Position numbers and translations under genes: made by a program. DNA of 64,000 nucleotides. It comes from Marinicella marina. GTDB taxonomy: Bacteria > Pseudomonadota > Gammaproteobacteria > Xanthomonadales > Marinicellaceae. The stretch is from NCBI RefSeq assembly GCF_030065545.1, contig NZ_JASJNC010000007.1, positions 124,001-188,000 of the forward strand, read 5' to 3'. The notes beneath the pieces are model-generated. The model saw only the letters and a list, made by a program, of their open reading frames with translations. It was not told the origin of the DNA and made no database searches. Of the stretch, positions 34,516 to 43,606 are shown in pieces. Each line of letters starts with the position of its first letter. Within the stretch, counting starts at the first letter, position 1.

Positions 34516-36672
34516 ATGTCGATTCTAAAAAAACCTAACCCACACACATCGATGCAACTTGCCGTGAGCAAAACACCCCTCATCAATCAGGGGAATGCAT
34601 CAGAAAAACGCGCTGAGATCAAACAACACTTCATCAGCACCTACGAAACATACGAATCACTGTTCAAATGTCTGAAGAGTGAATCTGCCTTTTATTTAAA
34701 GCCAGAACCCTTAAGACATCCGCTGATTTTCTACTATGCACACACAGCGGTGTTTTTTGTCAACAAACTCAGGGTAGCTAAAATCATCAGCAACAACATC
34801 AACGAGGACATCGAATCCATGATGGCCATAGGTGTTGATGAAATGTCCTGGGATGACCTCAATGATGCCAACTATGATTGGCCCTCGGTACAAGAAGTAC
34901 AAACTTACCGCGATCAAGTTAAATCCATGGTCTTGGCGTTAATTGATGAATTGGATTTATCCTTGCCAATCAACTGGGAGGACCCGTTTTGGATCATTTT
35001 GATGGGCATTGAACACGAACGCATTCACCTTGAAACATCCAGTGTATTGATCAGACAAATGGATATCCAACACGTGGTTTCTCACAGTGATTGGCCACAC
35101 AGCAATGTTGATCATGACGTGGTGACCAATTCATTACAATCGATTCCTGGTGGCACCGTAATCCAAGGCAGAAGCCTTCCCAGCGAAACTTATGGTTGGG
35201 ACAATGAATACGGCCAGCAAAGTACCGAAGTTAAAGATTTCAAAACCAGTCAATACCTGGTTTCAAACCATGAATTCAAAGCTTTTGTTGATGATGGCGG
35301 TTATTTGGATGAACAATGGTGGACCGATGAGGGTTGGCAATGGTGCCAGTTCAAACCGGCCAAACAGCCAACATTTTGGGTCAATCGAGATGGTAATTGG
35401 CTGTATCGGTGCATGACAACAGAGATTGAAATGCCATGGAGTTGGCCAGTTGATGTGAATTATTTAGAGGCCAAAGCCTTTTGTAATTGGCTTTCTGCGC
35501 GCAACGGCAAATCCATCAGGCTACCAACCGAAGCCGAATGGTATCGCATTCATGAACACACCATGAGTGACCAAACACCCTATCCTCAATGGCAACAAAC
35601 ACCAGCTAATATTGACCTGAGTGTCGCCGCCTCATCTGTACCAGTTGATAAGTTCACCTTTGGTCAACAAAAGCTCGGGGATGTTATCGGTAATGTGTGG
35701 CAATGGACTGAAACTGCCATTGATGGTTTTAAAGGCTTCAAGGTGCATCCAGCCTATGATGATTTTTCTGTGCCCACTTTTGATGGCCAACACAATCTGA
35801 TCAAAGGCGGCAGTTGGGCCAGCACCGGCAATGAAGTACATACAGACTCAAGATACGCCTTTCGCAGGCACTTTTTTCAACACGCAGGATTTAGATACGT
35901 CGAATCGGAGCAACAAGTGGACCAAACATTTAATACTTACGAAACAGATGAGCTGATTGCTCAATACTTAGAATTTCACTACGGCGCGGCATATTTTGGC
36001 GTACCCAACTTCCCCAAAGCCTGCATCGATGCTTTGATTCCGCATGTTGATTTAAGCCACAATCAACGGGCTTTAGATTTAGGCTGTGCTGTAGGCCGCA
36101 GCACCTTCGAATTGGCCAGATATTATGACCATGTTGATGGTTTGGATTTTTCTACTCGATTCATCCGCAATGCCATCAATCTGGTTGAGCATGGTGAAGT
36201 GAAGTACATGATTCCTACTGAAGGTGAATTAACCGAGTTGAAGTCTTTTTCATTGGCTGATTTGGCTTTGGGAGACAAGGCCAACAACACCGAGTTTGCT
36301 CAGGGCGATGCCTGTAATTTGAAACCCAAATACAGCAACTATGACTTGATTTTCGCCGGTAATTTGATAGATCGCTTGTATCAACCAAAACAATTTCTCG
36401 AAAGCATCACGGAGCGACTGAACAGCAAAGGCTACTTGGTGATCACATCACCCTACACCTGGCTTGAAGAATTCACCCAAAAAGAAAATTGGTTGGGTGG
36501 GGTTAAAGTCAATGGTGAAAATTACACCACATTGGATGCACTGCGTGATGCTTTGCGTGACGACTTTGAAATGATTGCAGTGCCACAAGATGTGCCCTTT
36601 GTCATCAGAGAAACAGCCAGAAAGCACCAACATACCGTTGCCCAATTAACCATTTGGCGCAAAAAAGCTTAA
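34516..36672 (+). CDS. OvoA 5-histidylcysteine sulfoxide synthase/methyltransferase
   Basis: A 718-residue fused enzyme that makes ovothiol. The N-terminal DinB-like domain (about 35-190) has the iron ligand motif EHERIHLE. The sulfatase-modifying-factor (FGE-like) domain follows (about 205-460, GWDNEYGQQS, RLPTEAEWYR, GNVWQWTE, RYAFRRHFFQHAGFRYV). A SAM methyltransferase domain lies at about 500-718 (ALDLGCAVGRSTFELARYY). OvoA joins the sulfur of cysteine to histidine C5 and the last domain methylates the imidazole N. An adjacent PLP enzyme starts 8 bases downstream, as expected for ovothiol genes. No clear ribosome-binding site is seen before the ATG. Confidence 0.94.
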   Translation: MSILKKPNPHTSMQLAVSKTPLINQGNASEKRAEIKQHFISTYETYESLFKCLKSESAFYLKPEPLRHPLIFYYAHTAVFFVNKLRVAKIISNNINEDIESMMAIGVDEMSWDDLNDANYDWPSVQEVQTYRDQVKSMVLALIDELDLSLPINWEDPFWIILMGIEHERIHLETSSVLIRQMDIQHVVSHSDWPHSNVDHDVVTNSLQSIPGGTVIQGRSLPSETYGWDNEYGQQSTEVKDFKTSQYLVSNHEFKAFVDDGGYLDEQWWTDEGWQWCQFKPAKQPTFWVNRDGNWLYRCMTTEIEMPWSWPVDVNYLEAKAFCNWLSARNGKSIRLPTEAEWYRIHEHTMSDQTPYPQWQQTPANIDLSVAASSVPVDKFTFGQQKLGDVIGNVWQWTETAIDGFKGFKVHPAYDDFSVPTFDGQHNLIKGGSWASTGNEVHTDSRYAFRRHFFQHAGFRYVESEQQVDQTFNTYETDELIAQYLEFHYGAAYFGVPNFPKACIDALIPHVDLSHNQRALDLGCAVGRSTFELARYYDHVDGLDFSTRFIRNAINLVEHGEVKYMIPTEGELTELKSFSLADLALGDKANNTEFAQGDACNLKPKYSNYDLIFAGNLIDRLYQPKQFLESITERLNSKGYLVITSPYTWLEEFTQKENWLGGVKVNGENYTTLDALRDALRDDFEMIAVPQDVPFVIRETARKHQHTVAQLTIWRKKA

Positions 36673-36679
36673 TCATACT

Positions 36680-37795
36680 GTGCGCTTTCCCGCCTTCAAA
36701 ATGGCCGCCTACAGCAAATTGGCGGCAACTCACCATGCGCACAACTTACACAGCAGCAACCCACAACCCCTGAATTGTCAGGGGTTGAGCGAACTGATAG
36801 GCGTGGACCTCACAGCAGCGATCAGCCAAATGCCGTTTGGCTATGAAAGCACCCAAGGCCGCGAATCGCTGCGATCATTACTGGCTACCGAATTGTTCAA
36901 GTCCACGACCGCTGATGAAATCTCTTTAACCTGTGGTGCACAAGAAGGCATTTTTGTGGTGATGCAAACTTTGCTCAGTGCAGGCGATGAAGTCATCGCA
37001 TTCACACCGAGTTTTGAACCACTGATCACAGAAGCTCAGATGACAGGTGCAACGGTGAAAACCATCCCATTGATTCAAGACCAAGGTTGGCACATCGATT
37101 GGCAATTGCTAGAAAAATCTTTTTCTGCCCGTACCAAAATGCTCATCATCAATTTTCCACACAACCCCACCGGCACGCATATCAACGCTGAAGAACTCAA
37201 CCGCTTGATTGATTTATGCCGTTCAAACAACAGTTGGCTGGTCTCAGATGAGGTTTTCAGGGGGCTTGAACACGATGAGTCACAGCGCCTGATGGCCGCA
37301 AGCGATTTATATCAACGCGCCATTTCAATGGGCGTGATGTCAAAATCATACGCAATGCCTGGTATCCGACTGGGATGGATTGCGTGTAGAAATCCCGAAG
37401 TGATACAACAGATCAACACCATCAAAGCCCATTTGTCGATTTGTCAGAGTGCCGCCGATGCGCAGTTGGCTGAAGCGATTTTGCCCCACACCCAAATCAT
37501 TTGGAAATACCACGTTAAGATCATAAACGAGAACAAACACTGGTTGCATGGCAAACTGCAGCAACACCCTGAATTAAGCTGGCACCTGCCAAAAGCTGCT
37601 GCCACAGGCTTTGTTCAGTTCAAACGTTTAAATGCCGATACAACCATCAAGCAGTGGGCAGAAGAATTACAGCTGATGGTCATGCCGAACGCGGCTTTTT
37701 GTACTGAAACTCAGGGCTTTCGAATCACTTTAGGACAAAAAAACTCTCAAGCCAGCATCAGCCAACTGCTGAACTGGCAACCTCAAGCTTCTTAA
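36680..37795 (+). CDS. PLP-dependent aminotransferase fold enzyme, likely OvoB role
   Basis: A 371-residue class I/II aminotransferase-fold enzyme with PLP lysine Lys222 in SKSYAMPGIRLGW, and the typical NFPHNPTG and SDEVFRG segments. It begins with GTG 8 bases after ovoA; the resulting MRFPAFKMAAYSK start matches the family pattern. In ovothiol synthesis the sulfoxide made by OvoA is cleaved by a PLP lyase, OvoB, of this fold. The tight linkage makes that role likely here. Alternatively it could be a plain aminotransferase. Its 3' end overlaps the convergent GGDEF gene by 38 bases. Confidence 0.8.
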   Translation: MRFPAFKMAAYSKLAATHHAHNLHSSNPQPLNCQGLSELIGVDLTAAISQMPFGYESTQGRESLRSLLATELFKSTTADEISLTCGAQEGIFVVMQTLLSAGDEVIAFTPSFEPLITEAQMTGATVKTIPLIQDQGWHIDWQLLEKSFSARTKMLIINFPHNPTGTHINAEELNRLIDLCRSNNSWLVSDEVFRGLEHDESQRLMAASDLYQRAISMGVMSKSYAMPGIRLGWIACRNPEVIQQINTIKAHLSICQSAADAQLAEAILPHTQIIWKYHVKIINENKHWLHGKLQQHPELSWHLPKAAATGFVQFKRLNADTTIKQWAEELQLMVMPNAAFCTETQGFRITLGQKNSQASISQLLNWQPQAS

Positions 37796-39575
37796 GCTGG
37801 CTGTATACCACGATTTGATTCCGCCCCCTGTTCTTGGCTTCAAATAGGGCCAAATCAGCATGCGTAAGCAGCACCGGTAAATGGTAGCCTGAACTCAAGG
37901 CACTGCTGAGGCCAAAGCTGGCGGTGATATTGAATTCAGCACCTGATCCAGAACAGTCCATTTGCGCTATGGCTGCACGCATTTTTTCCAACAAAGCGAC
38001 CATCTCAAGCTCGGATATGCCTGGTGAGACCAGACCAAACTCCTCACCACCCAAGCGCGCCAATAAAATATCTTGATCAATCACTTCTTCACAACACAGA
38101 ATCACTTGTCTGAGCACCCAATCACCGACCAAATGCCCATACTGATCGTTGACATTTTTAAACAAATCCAAATCCATGATGGCCACATTCAATGGTTTTT
38201 GCTTGCTTTCACAGGCTTTGAGCATTTCGGCTGTTTTCTCTTCAAACGCTTTGCGGGTGAACACCTGAGTCAAGTGATCAATTTCTGAAACGTGTTTGAA
38301 GTAATCGTGGCGCTTTTTGATTTTGAATGTCCATACGATCAACAACATCAACAAGCTGAAAATAAGTAGCAGCATCAATTGTTGTTTTTTCGCCGTTTCT
38401 GCCGTCAGTTGATTTTCTAGTGACAAGACTTGGTTGCTTTGGTTGAGCTGTTCTATTTCTAGTTGTTTGGCCAGATTATTGTGTTTGATTGACATGTATG
38501 CCATTTGTTTGGCTTTGGAATCGGTGTATATTTCATTCTCCACTTGGCTTTTTTGACTCATGTACTCATAGGCCAATTTGAAGTCATTGCTTTTCAGCGC
38601 AAGCTGATTTAAGACGTGCAATGACTCCACTACCTGCAGGGTATTGCCCGTTTTGTTGCTGCCCTCGATGGCTAACAGGGCATGGCCTTGAGCCAAAGTA
38701 TCATCACCCAAGGCAAAATGAATCCGCGCGAGTAACATTTCTTTCAGACCAATCAGGTTTTTCGATTCGGTGGCATTGATCAGACGTTCTTGATCTTGCA
38801 GCAGTTTTTTTAGGACATTGATGTTGGCAGTATCATTTCGTTCAATCGACTGCTCAAACTCACTTTGGATCCAATTCAAAGTCAATAACATGGCATAGCC
38901 TGTCTGATTGCTGTTTTTACACAACTCAATGGTTTGATGCAGCCTTTCCTGTTCGACAGCTTGTTGGTCTTTGAATGCTGCAGCCAGGTATATCGCGGAG
39001 GCTTTACATAAGTAAATGTCATTCAGCTCGTCATGGATCACCAGCTGCGCGTACTTCTGACTCATTTCATAGATATCCAACAAATAATAGACATTGGCAG
39101 TGACAAAGTTAATTTTTGAGCGGATGACTTTATCGGGGTGATCTTCTACTTGACTGATGATGTAGTCCAAGTGAATCAAAGCTTGATTGTATTCACGGCT
39201 GATGGCGGACATGTTGGCCAAGGTGGCTTTGGTTCTGATTTTAACTTCAGTATCACTCAGTTCTTCGAAGAACCTTTCGTATTCGTTTTGAGCCGTGTTG
39301 TAATCACCAGCGACAATCCACTGGTAAAGTTCAAAGTATTCAATGAATTCCTTTTGCGCTGGAGTGGCTTGTGGACTAAGGATTTTGAGTTTATCTAAGT
39401 GCTCTTGAAAAGCTTCAGGATCGGATATTTTCAAATCATCCGCTGCCAACAGCGTGTTTTGAATTTCCAGTTGGGTGGGGCTGAGTGGTGCGTTAGATTG
39501 AGCAGCACTGAGGGCAGCATAAAAAATGATGCACGTGGTAAATAGAATGAATTTAATTGGTTGTTTATTTGACAT
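37758..39575 (-). CDS. Exported TPR-transmembrane-GGDEF diguanylate cyclase 2
   Basis: A 605-residue protein. The signal peptide (about 1-25) leads to a periplasmic helical TPR-like sensor region to about residue 360, one transmembrane helix (about 396-416, MLLLIFSLLMLLIVWTF), and a cytoplasmic GGDEF domain. The active-site motif is GGEEF near residue 506, so it should make c-di-GMP, and no RxxD inhibition site is clear. It is a paralogue of the protein at 40907-42673. It lies 157 bases after a borosin-like precursor gene. Periplasmic ligand is unknown. Its stop lies inside the convergent aminotransferase gene. Confidence 0.9.
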   Translation of the reverse strand: MSNKQPIKFILFTTCIIFYAALSAAQSNAPLSPTQLEIQNTLLAADDLKISDPEAFQEHLDKLKILSPQATPAQKEFIEYFELYQWIVAGDYNTAQNEYERFFEELSDTEVKIRTKATLANMSAISREYNQALIHLDYIISQVEDHPDKVIRSKINFVTANVYYLLDIYEMSQKYAQLVIHDELNDIYLCKASAIYLAAAFKDQQAVEQERLHQTIELCKNSNQTGYAMLLTLNWIQSEFEQSIERNDTANINVLKKLLQDQERLINATESKNLIGLKEMLLARIHFALGDDTLAQGHALLAIEGSNKTGNTLQVVESLHVLNQLALKSNDFKLAYEYMSQKSQVENEIYTDSKAKQMAYMSIKHNNLAKQLEIEQLNQSNQVLSLENQLTAETAKKQQLMLLLIFSLLMLLIVWTFKIKKRHDYFKHVSEIDHLTQVFTRKAFEEKTAEMLKACESKQKPLNVAIMDLDLFKNVNDQYGHLVGDWVLRQVILCCEEVIDQDILLARLGGEEFGLVSPGISELEMVALLEKMRAAIAQMDCSGSGAEFNITASFGLSSALSSGYHLPVLLTHADLALFEAKNRGRNQIVVYSQLKKLEVASSAVG

Positions 39576-39658
39576 CTATCTCATGAGTACTTGGCCACTG
39601 TTCTCTGGTGACTTTAACCAACAAATTCACAAGGCATGTCTCTACCAATAACAACTAA

Positions 39659-39710
39659 CACCCTGTGAAAGCCTGTCTTTCTCATCCGAAACACATTGCC
39701 CCACAGGGTG
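39659..39710 (-). repeat. 9-bp inverted repeat between precursor B and cyclase 2
   Basis: CACCCTGTG (39659-39667) and its exact complement CACAGGGTG (39702-39710) flank a 34-base loop. It is in the leader between the precursor B stop and the cyclase 2 start. No T-run follows it, so it is not a simple terminator. It could be a structured leader or a processing site. Confidence 0.45.
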
Positions 39711-39732
39711 CTGATGAATTGACTGAAGTGGT

Positions 39733-39909
39733 TTAGTCTTGGTCGTCTTCTGGCTCAACCAAACAATACAACTCAACGCTGTGGCTGAAAGTTTCTTCAA
39801 TCAGGTCTGAATTCAAATGGTTGGCTTCTAACATCGCTGCTGCCGATTGGTGCTGTTTCAATGACGTGCTTTGACCGATTTGTTCCAAGGTTTTAACTAG
39901 TTTTTTCAT
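39733..39909 (-). CDS. Borosin-like precursor peptide B
   Basis: A 58-codon gene read directly from the sequence. It starts MKKLVKTLEQIGQ and ends VELYCLVEPEDDQD. GAGGA lies 6-7 bases before the ATG. It aligns without gaps to precursor A (42721-42903): 20 of 58 residues match, including Gly12, Gln13, Met26, Cys49, Leu50 and Pro53. The N-terminal part is helical with a GQ motif, as in the borosin-binding domain of SonA. The C-terminal LYCLVEP is the likely core that the methyltransferase at 40046 would N-methylate, followed by an acidic tail. Function is inference; the coding status is well supported by the paralogue and position. Confidence 0.75.
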   Translation of the reverse strand: MKKLVKTLEQIGQSTSLKQHQSAAAMLEANHLNSDLIEETFSHSVELYCLVEPEDDQD

Positions 39910-39932
39910 TTATGTTCCTCACATGTTGTTGT

Positions 39933-39975
39933 TATTATCACAAGATAATATCACGAGACCAACGTGATTTGCCAA
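39933..39975 (-). promoter_or_regulatory. Candidate promoter and operators of precursor B
   Basis: On the minus strand, TTGGCA (39970-39975) and TATTAT (39945-39950) are spaced 19 bases apart. An inverted repeat ATCACG-N7-CGTGAT (39950-39968) sits in the spacer and another, TATTATC-N4-GATAATA (39933-39950), overlaps the -10. The spacer is long and the repeats are short, so this is a suggestion only. It would give precursor B its own regulated transcript. Confidence 0.3.
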
Positions 39976-40045
39976 CACTAATTACCACCACCCATTCGAG
40001 CCCTTTCTGGGAGACAATTAAATCCTTAAATAAATCTCAAACTGA

Positions 40046-40846
40046 TTAATCAGTTATGTGATCATTTGCCTGACTTAAACTGTTGGCCATATCTATCATG
40101 GCTTGATTGGTTTGCTTCGCAATGGCCGGTGGCACCACCAAAGTCGATTTCAATGACACTTCTTGGTGGGCCAGATCTTGCAATGATACGGTTTTAATCA
40201 TGGCCTGCTCTATCGGTAACACTGGACACTCGTATAAGGTCACCTGATGGTTTTTGGGGTACGTTTTAAGCAACAAATCCACCAATAACTGCCTTTGCTC
40301 TGGCGTGGTCTCAAAGGTTTTCATCGCTTTATCACCGGCCATCGCTATTTGCCACAGAATCAAGTAAGCACTGGGATCAAAAGGTCGGTGATTGAACAAA
40401 AACTGACTGGCTTCAAAATGGGCACAGCCATGCTGACCCGGATCGATACCTAAATCGGCATACAAACAAGCCTCTGCTGAAACACCCGGTTCCATGTGAG
40501 CCTGATAGCCCTCATCACGACACATTCTGATGGTTTCATGCGGCGGCCAAGCGAACACTCCTGGGTGACCATAATAAGCACCACACACCGATTTACCGGC
40601 CCTCACCTGCGCCATGATGGCAGCCACCATGTTGCGGTAAGTCACCATCCGTGATTGTCCTTCTTGGTAGTATGGCTGCAGACTGATGACATGATCATTC
40701 ATGGTTTTGACCCATTCTTCCACCAATTGGTTCGAAGCCGAGACAAACACCACATCAGCCTGTTCAATAAAGTTTCGAGAAATGGGCGTGATGTGCGCAC
40801 CCAAAGTCATGCCCAGTCCAACGTTGACCAGTTTACCTTTTTTCAT
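40046..40846 (-). CDS. Borosin-type peptide backbone alpha-N-methyltransferase
   Basis: A 266-residue SAM-dependent tetrapyrrole-methylase-fold protein. It matches the methyltransferase domain of OphMA and the split enzyme SonM rather than cobalamin or rRNA (RsmI) methylases. YYQEGQSRMVTY (59-70) matches the OphMA segment with the catalytic Tyr66, Arg72 and Tyr76 (here Tyr60, Arg66, Tyr70); the equivalent of OphMA Tyr63 is Gln57. YYGHPGVF (91-98), GVSAEACLYADLGIDPG (121-137) and FEASQFL-RPFDPSAYLILWQ follow. OphMA and SonM N-methylate the peptide backbone of a substrate; here two small genes nearby provide likely substrates. The protein has no fused C-terminal substrate, so it is a split-type enzyme. 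It sits 60 bases after cyclase 1 and 136 bases before precursor B. Confidence 0.85.
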   Translation of the reverse strand: MKKGKLVNVGLGMTLGAHITPISRNFIEQADVVFVSASNQLVEEWVKTMNDHVISLQPYYQEGQSRMVTYRNMVAAIMAQVRAGKSVCGAYYGHPGVFAWPPHETIRMCRDEGYQAHMEPGVSAEACLYADLGIDPGQHGCAHFEASQFLFNHRPFDPSAYLILWQIAMAGDKAMKTFETTPEQRQLLVDLLLKTYPKNHQVTLYECPVLPIEQAMIKTVSLQDLAHQEVSLKSTLVVPPAIAKQTNQAMIDMANSLSQANDHITD

Positions 40847-40906
40847 TGTTTAAAATCCTCAATCAAGACCTTGATCGGTCTCAGTGGTATTAATTGAATG
40901 TTAATT

Positions 40907-42673
40907 TCAGTGCTCGTTATGTGCCAGCACAATTTGATTTCGACCTTGCTTCTTAGCCTCAAACAAAGCCACATCGGCATGCGTTAACAACAAGGGCAGC
41001 GCATAACCTGAAATGTCGCTGGAAGTGTAACCAAAGCTGGCCGTTACTGCCAAATCAGCCGCCGAGTCTGAACAATCTAATTGCTCAATGGATTGTCGCA
41101 TATGTTCTAATTTGGCGTGCATGTCTTCTTGTGTGATATCCGTCATCACCACACAAAACTCCTCGCCACCCAAGCGCGCAATGATCATATTTTCTTCAAT
41201 CAGCTCTTTCACCGCGTAGACCACATTTTTCAGCACCCAATCACCCACCAAATGACCATGGGTGTCGTTCACGACTTTAAAATGATCCAAATCCATGATG
41301 GCCAATTGAACCGTTTTCTTTTGCTCACGTGACTCATCCAAAATAACTGACATCTGCTCTTCAAAGGCCTTACGGGTCAGCACTTTAGTCAAATGATCTA
41401 TCTCAGAAACTGCGCGGAAATAATCATGCTTCTTCTTGATCCTCATAAGCAACAGAATCACAAAAGACAAAATGATCAATATCAACAGAATAATCAAGCG
41501 CTGGTTATTCGCTTCCTGTTTGGCCAATTGTTTTTCCAGCTCCAATACTTCTTTTTGCTGATTCAACTGCTCGATTTCAAAAACTTTAGATAAATTAGAA
41601 TGTTTAATGGTCATGAACGCCATTTGTTTGGCCTGGGCTTGATCGTACATACCCAATTCAGCCTCGTTTCTGCGTTCCAAATAATGATATGAATTGACAA
41701 AATCCCCCATCTCTCTATGAACTGTTTCTAAGACTTTTAATGCCATGACCAAATACTCTGTTTGATCGGCATCACGATTCATATCTAAAGTCTTTTCAGC
41801 CATAACTTTTGCTTTATTCTGGTCGCCTTGCAATAAGGCGAATTTAGCCTCGATTGCATTAAACGCAGTTTTGTTATTGATATAGATTGAATTTTGAACC
41901 AGGGGTTTTAATTGTTCTATCAAAGCACTAACAACAGTCAACTCTTGTACATCTATTCCTGCCTGACTCAAGGAACGCTTTAAAGTATCTAATAAGATTG
42001 ACTCAGCAATTAGATTGTGACCATTTTTTGAACACTCATCAGCAATATCCTTGATTTCAACCATTGAGGTTTTTGAAGAGTCACTGTCAAGATGATGAAG
42101 GTTCTTGCTGTAATGTAGCCGACATAAATTTTCATCGGTTGGAGATAAGGAATAGAGTAGCTTACTGTATTCAATACTCAACTCCTTCTGATCCAATAAA
42201 TTATAAACCATAGAAGCAGCGGTATATGCTATGACTTTCGAGGCAATATCTGCTGTTTGTTCAACCTTATTGATCACCGCATCAATAAAGAAGGAAGCAT
42301 TTTCATAATCACCGACTAATGCACTCAAATTGGCAACCAACGCTTCAATTCTAATTCTGGCACGCAAATCATCACATGAGGGAATGATTTCCTTCATCTG
42401 ATTTATAGCCTCTTGAGTTAAACCTTCGAAAGCAACTTTGTACGCCTTTAAAAAACGGAAATGACAATACTGATAGGATGACATGCTACCTTGCGTTTGC
42501 TCAAGTTCAGACAATCCATCCAAAAACAGTTCATAATCACTCAGACGTTTGGATTCCAGTTCCAATAACTTATCAGTGATGAACACTGGCTCAGCCAGAT
42601 CAGATGTGATTTGTGCATTTGCCACCCATACTGTCAAAAGCAGTATGAATGGCACTTTATTAAGCAATTTCAA
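40907..42673 (-). CDS. Exported TPR-transmembrane-GGDEF diguanylate cyclase 1
   Basis: A 588-residue paralogue of cyclase 2. A signal peptide (about 1-20), a helical TPR-like periplasmic region, a transmembrane helix near 390-410 and a GGDEF domain with GGEEF at about 500. The start is TTG (42673): an in-frame stop (TAG) lies 2 codons before it, so no upstream ATG is possible, and another TTG two codons in is better spaced from AGG. It lies 47 bases after precursor A, so the two are likely co-transcribed, and 60 bases before the methyltransferase. Confidence 0.88.
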   Translation of the reverse strand: MKLLNKVPFILLLTVWVANAQITSDLAEPVFITDKLLELESKRLSDYELFLDGLSELEQTQGSMSSYQYCHFRFLKAYKVAFEGLTQEAINQMKEIIPSCDDLRARIRIEALVANLSALVGDYENASFFIDAVINKVEQTADIASKVIAYTAASMVYNLLDQKELSIEYSKLLYSLSPTDENLCRLHYSKNLHHLDSDSSKTSMVEIKDIADECSKNGHNLIAESILLDTLKRSLSQAGIDVQELTVVSALIEQLKPLVQNSIYINNKTAFNAIEAKFALLQGDQNKAKVMAEKTLDMNRDADQTEYLVMALKVLETVHREMGDFVNSYHYLERRNEAELGMYDQAQAKQMAFMTIKHSNLSKVFEIEQLNQQKEVLELEKQLAKQEANNQRLIILLILIILSFVILLLMRIKKKHDYFRAVSEIDHLTKVLTRKAFEEQMSVILDESREQKKTVQLAIMDLDHFKVVNDTHGHLVGDWVLKNVVYAVKELIEENMIIARLGGEEFCVVMTDITQEDMHAKLEHMRQSIEQLDCSDSAADLAVTASFGYTSSDISGYALPLLLTHADVALFEAKKQGRNQIVLAHNEH

Positions 42674-42720
42674 AACCTACCATGATAATTAAACATATTT
42701 TTCAACAAGGCTTTAAATCA

Positions 42721-42903
42721 TTACTCATCGTCATCATCATCGTCCGGTAATATCAAACAAATTAAATCTTGGCTCTGTGACTTGATCTTTTGAAAAACCG
42801 TGTCTTTCATGCCTAATGAATTAACCATGTGCTCAGTCGAATCATACTGACGTATAGATTGTGTTTGTCCTAACTTTTCTAGGATACGAACGTCTAACTT
42901 CAT
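42721..42903 (-). CDS. Borosin-like precursor peptide A
   Basis: A 60-codon gene starting MKLDVRILEKLGQ and ending DLICLILP followed by an acidic DDDDDDE tail. AGGAG lies 5 bases before this ATG; an in-frame GTG at 42909 overlaps the ribosome-binding site and is not used. Cys49, Leu50 and Pro53 occupy the same positions as in precursor B. The N-terminal LGQ-containing helix resembles SonA and the C-terminal hydrophobic stretch is the probable core. It leads the transcript with cyclase 1 and the methyltransferase. Confidence 0.8.
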   Translation of the reverse strand: MKLDVRILEKLGQTQSIRQYDSTEHMVNSLGMKDTVFQKIKSQSQDLICLILPDDDDDDE

Positions 42904-42935
42904 ACTCACTCCTCTTTGATGATATTATTTTTAAA

Positions 42936-42967
42936 GGTGTAAACTACTTACACCGCATAAAATCATA
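42936..42967 (-). promoter_or_regulatory. Candidate promoter/operator of precursor A
   Basis: The inverted repeat GGTGTAA-N5-TTACACC (42936-42954) lies about 33 bases before the precursor A start. TATGAT (42962-42967, minus strand) upstream of it could be a -10 box. If so, the repeat covers the start of transcription, as an operator often does. A matching -35 box is not clear. Confidence 0.4.
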
Positions 42968-43087: not shown

Positions 43088-43606
43088 TTATTTCAATTCC
43101 CAATACCTGAAGCAATTATCTCGGCCTGCCTTTGATGTCAATGAAGCTTTGAAGCCTAAATTTTCATAGCAATTATTTGCTGTTACGTTTTTAACAGCAG
43201 TAATTGCTGTAAATTTTTTGACTGGAAATTCGGTTCGGGCATCTGCCATCAATGCGTGATGAGCTTTTTTAAAAATACCTTTACCCTGGAACTCGGGTAA
43301 AACCATGATACCTAATTTAACAATCTGCGTAGATGCATTCCAATGTAGACTGAAAATCCCCAGATCATTCAATTTCTTGTTAGCATCACACCAACCACTA
43401 CCTGATAAATAACCTTTTAAAACGAAGTATTTGGCAAAACCTCGAGACACTTCCTTTAACATAGTAATAATTAGCTGATGAACCTCTTGATCATTTTTAA
43501 CGTTGCCTATGTGTTTCATGACAGTTGCATCTTGGTATAAACGTTTAATTAAATTGATGTCAGTTGCCAATAATTGCCTATATCTCAGTTCTGTATCAAA
43601 AATCAT
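43088..43606 (-). CDS. GNAT acetyltransferase
   Basis: A 172-residue GNAT of the RimJ/RimL type. The acetyl-CoA loop is seen in VLPEFQGKGIFKKAHHAL, and ENLGFKASL is near the end. The DNA is more AT-rich than its neighbours. It lies 185 bases upstream of precursor A on the same strand, so it may or may not belong to the borosin-like locus. Substrate unknown: protein N-terminus, aminoglycoside and small amines are all possible. Confidence 0.8.
   Translation of the reverse strand: MIFDTELRYRQLLATDINLIKRLYQDATVMKHIGNVKNDQEVHQLIITMLKEVSRGFAKYFVLKGYLSGSGWCDANKKLNDLGIFSLHWNASTQIVKLGIMVLPEFQGKGIFKKAHHALMADARTEFPVKKFTAITAVKNVTANNCYENLGFKASLTSKAGRDNCFRYWELK

Follow-up and report, generated by a model that had tools for sequence, protein, structure and literature searches.

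A predicted split-borosin locus of Marinicella marina pairs each peptide precursor with a receptor-like diguanylate cyclase

Borosins are peptides methylated on their backbone, and in split borosins the methyltransferase and the precursor are encoded separately. Here we describe a locus in a 64,000-nucleotide stretch of the Marinicella marina genome (contig NZ_JASJNC010000007.1, positions 124,001 to 188,000; this whole stretch is called the window, and coordinates refer to it) in which a predicted split-borosin alpha-N-methyltransferase (MT) is encoded together with two short precursors, each lying ahead of a gene for a diguanylate cyclase (DGC) with a transmembrane (TM) helix and a sensor domain made of tetratricopeptide repeats (TPR). 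The pairing of a split-borosin precursor with a receptor-like cyclase is the new element of this locus. It recurs at about 90 loci in other Gammaproteobacteria, where precursor and sensor diversify together. These observations are best explained by a split-borosin operon of peptide/receptor cassettes that signals through cyclic di-GMP (c-di-GMP), a reading to which we give somewhat less than even confidence.

Results

Organization of the locus

The genes run on the minus strand in the order GNAT, precursor A, DGC1, MT, precursor B and DGC2, as follows.

43088..43606, minus strand: GNAT acetyltransferase, RimJ/RimL-like (PF13302, 2.9e-14); opens the gene run, directly upstream of precursor A
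42721..42903, minus strand: precursor A, 60 aa, core LICLILPDDDDDDE; a helical leader of ~41 residues, taken as a shortened borosin binding domain, then the C-terminal core
42724..42765, minus strand: residues 47-60 of precursor A, its putative core plus acidic tail; Cys-x(1-4)-Pro, then the acidic tail
40907..42673, minus strand: DGC1; signal peptide, predicted periplasmic TPR superhelix, coiled coil, TM helix 394-412, GGEEF (PF00990, 3.6e-34)
40046..40846, minus strand: MT, 266 aa, predicted split-borosin alpha-N-methyltransferase of the SonM type (PF00590, TP_methylase, 4.5e-17)
39733..39909, minus strand: precursor B, 58 aa, helical leader and core VELYCLVEPEDDQD
39736..39777, minus strand: residues 45-58 of precursor B, its putative core plus acidic tail; motif as in precursor A
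37758..39575, minus strand: DGC2; signal peptide 7-25, predicted periplasmic TPR superhelix, TM helix 401-419, GGEEF (PF00990, 2.6e-33)

The initial annotation of this DNA, made from its letters alone, had listed five of these genes, from precursor A to DGC2; all were located on the minus strand and in the order that it gave, and it had overlooked the GNAT gene (43606-43088). The start codon of precursor A is an ATG behind an AGAGGAG Shine-Dalgarno sequence (an alternative GTG is possible at 42909), and a Shine-Dalgarno-like sequence precedes the ATG of precursor B as well.

The methyltransferase resembles SonM

Comparison of the MT with solved structures returned SonM as the best match (6.8e-65), followed by the fungal fused enzymes dbOphMA, OphMA and MroMA (1e-40 to 1e-46; OphMA, 7.8e-43). 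Borosin methyltransferases scored 144-222 bits against the window MT, and the sole other solved chain with an E value of up to 1 was a uroporphyrinogen methylase, at 17.5 bits. The SonM residues Y58, R67, Y71, Y93, F99 and W166 have been studied as active-site or gate residues (PMC8429565). In a pairwise alignment they correspond to Y60, R66, Y70, Y92, F98 and W165 of the MT, and all six are invariant in the 13 rows of alignment A1. An RsmI or cobalamin-type methylase, the other grouping raised in the initial annotation, is ruled out by the bit scores together with the conserved SonM residues, and the OphMA/SonM-like motifs that it had noticed were recovered. By its sequence, the MT is thus placed as a borosin enzyme of the SonM type, which would N-methylate the backbone of the precursor cores. 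In an unrooted tree, the cyclase-linked MTs fall on more than one arm.

The precursors belong to a family with a SonA-type leader

Precursors A and B align without gaps across their helical part with 34% identity, in line with the gap-free alignment first reported for them. A profile of 17 precursors, both window sequences included, was built without any SonA-like member; among 177,635 PDB sequences, its top match was the SonA binding domain (4.7e-5). SonA-like precursors form a second arm of the precursor family: they match SonA directly (1.3e-9) and also sit ahead of TPR-TM-GGDEF genes, in loci L065, L067 and L069. At the level of the family, these matches argue for a SonA-type borosin binding domain in the precursors. 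The split-borosin reading proposed in the initial annotation is therefore upheld by the SonM/OphMA match, the retained catalytic residues and the binding domain of the precursor family.

Precursor A is modelled as four helices (residues 3-40) and an extended segment (41-60), with a modest pLDDT of 74 and a pTM of 0.41. The Marinicella leader is ~13 columns shorter than that of the longer members, which have one more helix at this place. In 78 of the 105 members of the family, the core has the form Cys-x(1-4)-Pro with acidic residues behind it; the Cys motif is missing in the remaining 27, most Dyella precursors among them. The precursor genes are under purifying selection (pN/pS mostly 0.1-0.5, for close pairs), which together with their recurrence at ~90 loci rules out chance open reading frames. 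As the small genes and their placement recur in this way, the arrangement is more than chance. Additional precursors are present in Rhodanobacter-type loci (L094, L096, L107, L110, L118 and L129), and some of these carry a doubled core (VCCMMLPATVCCMMLPG in L094).

The cyclases carry a predicted periplasmic TPR sensor

Both cyclases have the PF00990 domain (~1e-33 each) with an intact GGEEF motif, which is retained in 105/105 cyclases, and a TM helix immediately ahead of the GGDEF domain. An N-terminal hydrophobic signal is present in both; DGC2 alone passes the hydropathy threshold, the signal of DGC1 being shorter. The N-terminal signal and the TM helix predict that the TPRs are periplasmic and the GGEEF domain cytoplasmic. 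Modelled from an alignment, the periplasmic domain of DGC1 is a TPR superhelix that continues into a coiled coil, with a confident pLDDT of 92.9. The sensor domains of DGC1 and DGC2 are 29% identical, and the description of the two as paralogous exported TPR-TM-GGDEF proteins holds.

A Foldseek search with the DGC1 sensor model listed LGN-peptide, Rap-pheromone and NprR structures among its matches. In a structural comparison, the eight best matches were all peptide-pheromone receptors (Z 21.4-22.4 over 303-315 residues), among them RapF-PhrF (Z 22.4), NprR-NprX (Z 21.6), Rap of phage phi3T with its pheromone and Rap with the competence and sporulation factor. AimR (Z 18.1) and other TPR proteins such as APC/C and LGN (19-20.5) scored lower. 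The predicted receptor fold is thus of the Rap/NprR kind.

Two cysteines (DGC1 residues 184 and 214) are invariant in all 47 periplasmic TPR domains of alignment A2. A role of the precursor Cys as a metal chelator or as a disulphide partner of these residues was considered and rejected: 27/105 precursors are without the Cys motif while the sensor cysteines are invariant (47/47). For the same reason, the sensor cysteines probably form a structural disulphide.

The module recurs in other Gammaproteobacteria

Near MT genes of other Gammaproteobacteria, 105 precursor-DGC pairs were found in 90 loci after removal of duplicates. The pattern is present in Marinicella, Rheinheimera, Alkalimonas, Rhodanobacter, Dyella, Frateuria, Arenimonas, Steroidobacter, Pleionea, Paraglaciecola and Aliiglaciecola. 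The DGC family lies near the MT in 89/105 loci, and all 107 copies are on the MT strand. By chance, a same-strand GGDEF gene would be expected within ~5 kb of a random gene in ~5% of cases, an estimate that rests on the 30 GGDEF domains of the 3.46 Mb window genome. Two of these 30 GGDEF proteins bear the sensor described here, and both are at the borosin locus. Among 61 relatives, 38 have both MT and sensor, none has the MT only, 3 have the sensor only and 20 have neither. In locus L068, a single open frame of 859 residues reads TPR-TM-GGDEF-MT; in the orientation of the MT strand, it begins ~1.8 kb ahead of the start of the MT match and ends 0.77 kb beyond it. This fusion is one example, and an assembly error is possible.

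The GNAT family is found in 52/105 loci, before or after the MT, with 55 copies, every one on the MT strand. GNAT is likely a fourth component of the module, and its substrate may be the precursor. The protein evolves fast, with ~30% identity between species. A search for recurrent neighbours in the 105 loci returned no gene that recurs broadly besides DGC, MT, GNAT and precursors.

Precursor and sensor diversify as a unit

Several genomes carry two or three precursor-DGC pairs around one MT, in varying order. In most Marinicella genomes with the duplication both cassettes are downstream of the MT, and one genome has three. The initial annotation had proposed that the precursor-cyclase pair was duplicated around one methyltransferase. 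The cassette as the unit of duplication stands, but the duplication is old and common to several Marinicella genomes, with the order rearranged in the window. The cassettes are also mobile: where a cyclase is remote from the MT, being encoded on a separate contig or at a distant site of the chromosome, a precursor gene still lies immediately ahead of it in L191, L194, L195, L196, L197, L198, L201 and L202.

In loci with several cassettes, the matching of precursors agreed with the matching of sensors in 32/32 comparisons, a count that covers only comparisons with a clear sensor difference (>=0.1), and did so also where gene order differs. Over all loci the concordance was 50/73, distant comparisons carrying no signal. 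A partial Mantel correlation between precursor and sensor, given MT and GGDEF, was 0.43, and 0/999 permutations gave a value as high; the precursor correlated with the GGDEF domain at 0.24. Two cyclases of the same locus can be as alike as 0.93 in their GGDEF domains, with just 0.32 for the sensors and 0.29 for the precursors. Taken together, these sequence comparisons show that precursor and sensor are a unit that diversifies together, a behaviour that does not imply binding.

Discussion

A model for peptide signalling through c-di-GMP

In the model that we favour, one SonM-type MT would grip the short precursors by their helical leader and methylate the backbone of their C-terminal core, possibly with the assistance of the GNAT acetyltransferase, in which case the peptide would perhaps be acetylated as well. 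The receptor of each precursor would be the cyclase encoded directly downstream, an inner membrane protein with its Rap/NprR-like TPR superhelix in the periplasm and its GGEEF domain in the cytoplasm. Once the leader had been removed, the mature peptide would reach the periplasm or the medium and dock in the groove formed by the TPRs of its cognate cyclase, altering c-di-GMP synthesis. Two cassettes would give two parallel peptide channels with a single output. Methylation of the peptides, removal of the leader and export through housekeeping factors, binding to the TPR domain and the direction in which c-di-GMP changes are the steps that we infer; for export, our guesses are general systems or passive crossing of the methylated peptide. 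Sensing of the peptide in the periplasm is plausible, and is strengthened by the fold match and by the behaviour of the cassettes. Put in its most specific form, this would be a pheromone system of Gram-negative bacteria with borosin autoinducers. Each would be recognised by a dedicated Rap-like TPR domain in the periplasm and translated into c-di-GMP, and one MT would serve several cassettes, which are duplicated, diverge and relocate as whole units. We advance this form tentatively, as a possibility that we hold for less probable than its opposite.

Several observations weigh against peptide signalling by such cassettes. The missing exporter and protease are its weak point: among the 105 MT loci, no transporter, exporter, peptidase or protease recurs broadly, and the precursors have no signal peptide in their sequence, the helical leader starting at the N-terminus. 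As single queries, precursors A and B gave no match among PDB sequences or in scans of domain libraries, and a fold search with the model of precursor A matched no known fold. TPR superhelices look alike, so that the likeness to Rap is one of fold and does not imply a ligand, and co-inheritance of neighbouring genes is expected from linkage alone. The window sensors have net charges of -18 and -19, and an acidic core tail would be repelled by them unless it were removed or the groove were basic. This suggests that the tail is cleaved off or is not the binding part. Precursors outnumber cyclases in some loci (five versus two in L118). Conversely, sensors without a precursor are found in L190, L199 and L200, as single genes in L197 and L198, and at contig ends. 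Finally, many Dyella precursors lack the Cys/hydrophobic core, and their products may therefore differ.

Two of these groups deserve description in their own right. Dyella-type precursors that have no Cys/hydrophobic core occur in L054, L113, L115, L117, L123, L128, L132, L147, L148, L151, L152 and similar loci, which still keep the leader, the cyclase and the MT. L190 is from a genome of the same genus (G011) that has no MT match and one such cyclase with no upstream precursor; this cyclase is possibly a relic or a repurposed receptor.

Alternative explanations

The cyclase might instead regulate a pathway whose product is the peptide: a signal of another kind would be sensed by the TPR domain, and c-di-GMP would control the making or release of a borosin that serves, for example, in metal binding (through its Cys and acidic tail) or in antagonism. 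The shared operon fits such an arrangement, as do the Cys-x(1-4)-Pro motif with its acidic tail in 78/105 precursors and the existence of split borosins that have no cyclase nearby (the distant loci L154, L155 and L157-L159). However, a diffusible messenger needs no separate, diverged cyclase for nearly each precursor, the pair is kept in cassettes that have no MT nearby, and the Cys motif is absent from 27/105 precursors. We consider this explanation rather doubtful.

The absence of a recurring exporter or protease and of a precursor signal peptide would be accounted for if nothing were exported. The methylated precursor or its core would then act on the cytoplasmic side of the cyclase, or within an MT-cyclase complex at the membrane, and the TPR domain would read another cue or a protein partner. 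The L068 gene, in which the MT is fused to the cytoplasmic end of the cyclase, is consistent with this, as is RcbB of Vibrio vulnificus, whose TPR domain represses the cyclase until a protein partner relieves it (PMC12282931). Against an intracellular action, GGDEF domains are near-identical within some loci while sensor and precursor diverge, and the precursor tracks the sensor (0.43) over the GGDEF domain (0.24), which is what a specificity residing in the variable periplasmic part would predict. These data make an intracellular action unlikely.

TPR-domain diguanylate cyclases exist without borosins (RcbB and the cyclases cited in PMC12282931), but an accident of operon history is very improbable given the 107/107 copies on one strand in 89 loci, the presence profile of 38/0/3/20, the MT-distant cassettes and the L068 gene fusion.

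Significance

The initial annotation had stated that no described borosin locus was coupled to diguanylate cyclases. This was too strong: the Figure 1 key of PMC11395268 (2024) lists GGDEF among borosin architectures, with types after Imani 2022 and Cho 2022, and the borosin-GGDEF link is hence not wholly unpublished. The statement keeps its value for the literature otherwise covered, as the search, with Imani 2022 outside its coverage, returned nothing that joins borosins with diguanylate cyclases or c-di-GMP. The available portion of the text of PMC11395268 does not describe per-precursor pairing, cassettes or the sensor fold.

No biological role of bacterial split borosins was found stated in the literature searched. 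The conserved pairing of precursor and receptor-like cyclase at ~90 loci makes this role directly testable, and the recurrence of a peptide with a sensor suggests that the peptides are signals to which the bacteria respond by changing their lifestyle. Should the peptides act as ligands, they would form a class of ribosomal backbone-methylated pheromones in Gram-negative bacteria, provide natural sets of diverging peptides and receptors for the study of specificity, and supply the ligands of TPR diguanylate cyclases that are so far an orphan class.

Neighbouring genes

On the plus strand, 34516-37795 encodes a full-length ovothiol synthase OvoA (TIGR04344 and TIGR04345 halves), and behind it a pyridoxal phosphate enzyme from the aminotransferase family, a candidate for the OvoB lyase. 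In eight of the loci analysed, OvoA and the borosin operon are convergent.

Comparison with known systems

The closest biosynthetic relative is the split (type IV) borosin SonM/SonA of Shewanella oneidensis (PMC8429565; PDB 7LTC). Both systems have a discrete alpha-N-methyltransferase with active-site and gate residues in common, and in both a short precursor is encoded apart, its helical binding domain preceding a C-terminal core. The window differs in its precursors of 58-60 aa, with a core of Cys-hydrophobic-Pro and an acidic tail, in having two precursors per MT, each ahead of a TPR-TM-GGDEF cyclase, and in the GNAT gene. The main text of PMC8429565 mentions neither GGDEF, nor a cyclase, nor an operon.

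On the side of the cyclase, RcbB-type enzymes share TPR input and GGDEF output with the window DGCs, which fall into the TPR-TM-GGDEF class by PF00990, GGEEF, TM helix and predicted TPR fold. In RcbB, the partner that relieves repression is itself a TPR protein, and cyclases of V. parahaemolyticus with periplasmic TPRs are cited in the same study (PMC12282931). That study describes no peptide precursor or methyltransferase with RcbB, and its main text does not mention a methyltransferase.

The RRNPP systems (Rap-Phr, NprR-NprX and AimR) provide the closest solved folds to the window periplasmic domain, and there too the receptor gene adjoins a short peptide gene. RRNPP receptors are cytoplasmic, have DNA- or protein-binding outputs and belong to Gram-positive bacteria and their phages; their peptides are exported via signal peptides and are unmethylated. 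In contrast, the window TPR domain would be periplasmic and forms part of a diguanylate cyclase, and the peptide, predicted to be a borosin, has no secretion signal. The window sensor may therefore work as an RRNPP receptor does, yet it would not be one of them, its TPRs being placed in the periplasm and its effector across the membrane.

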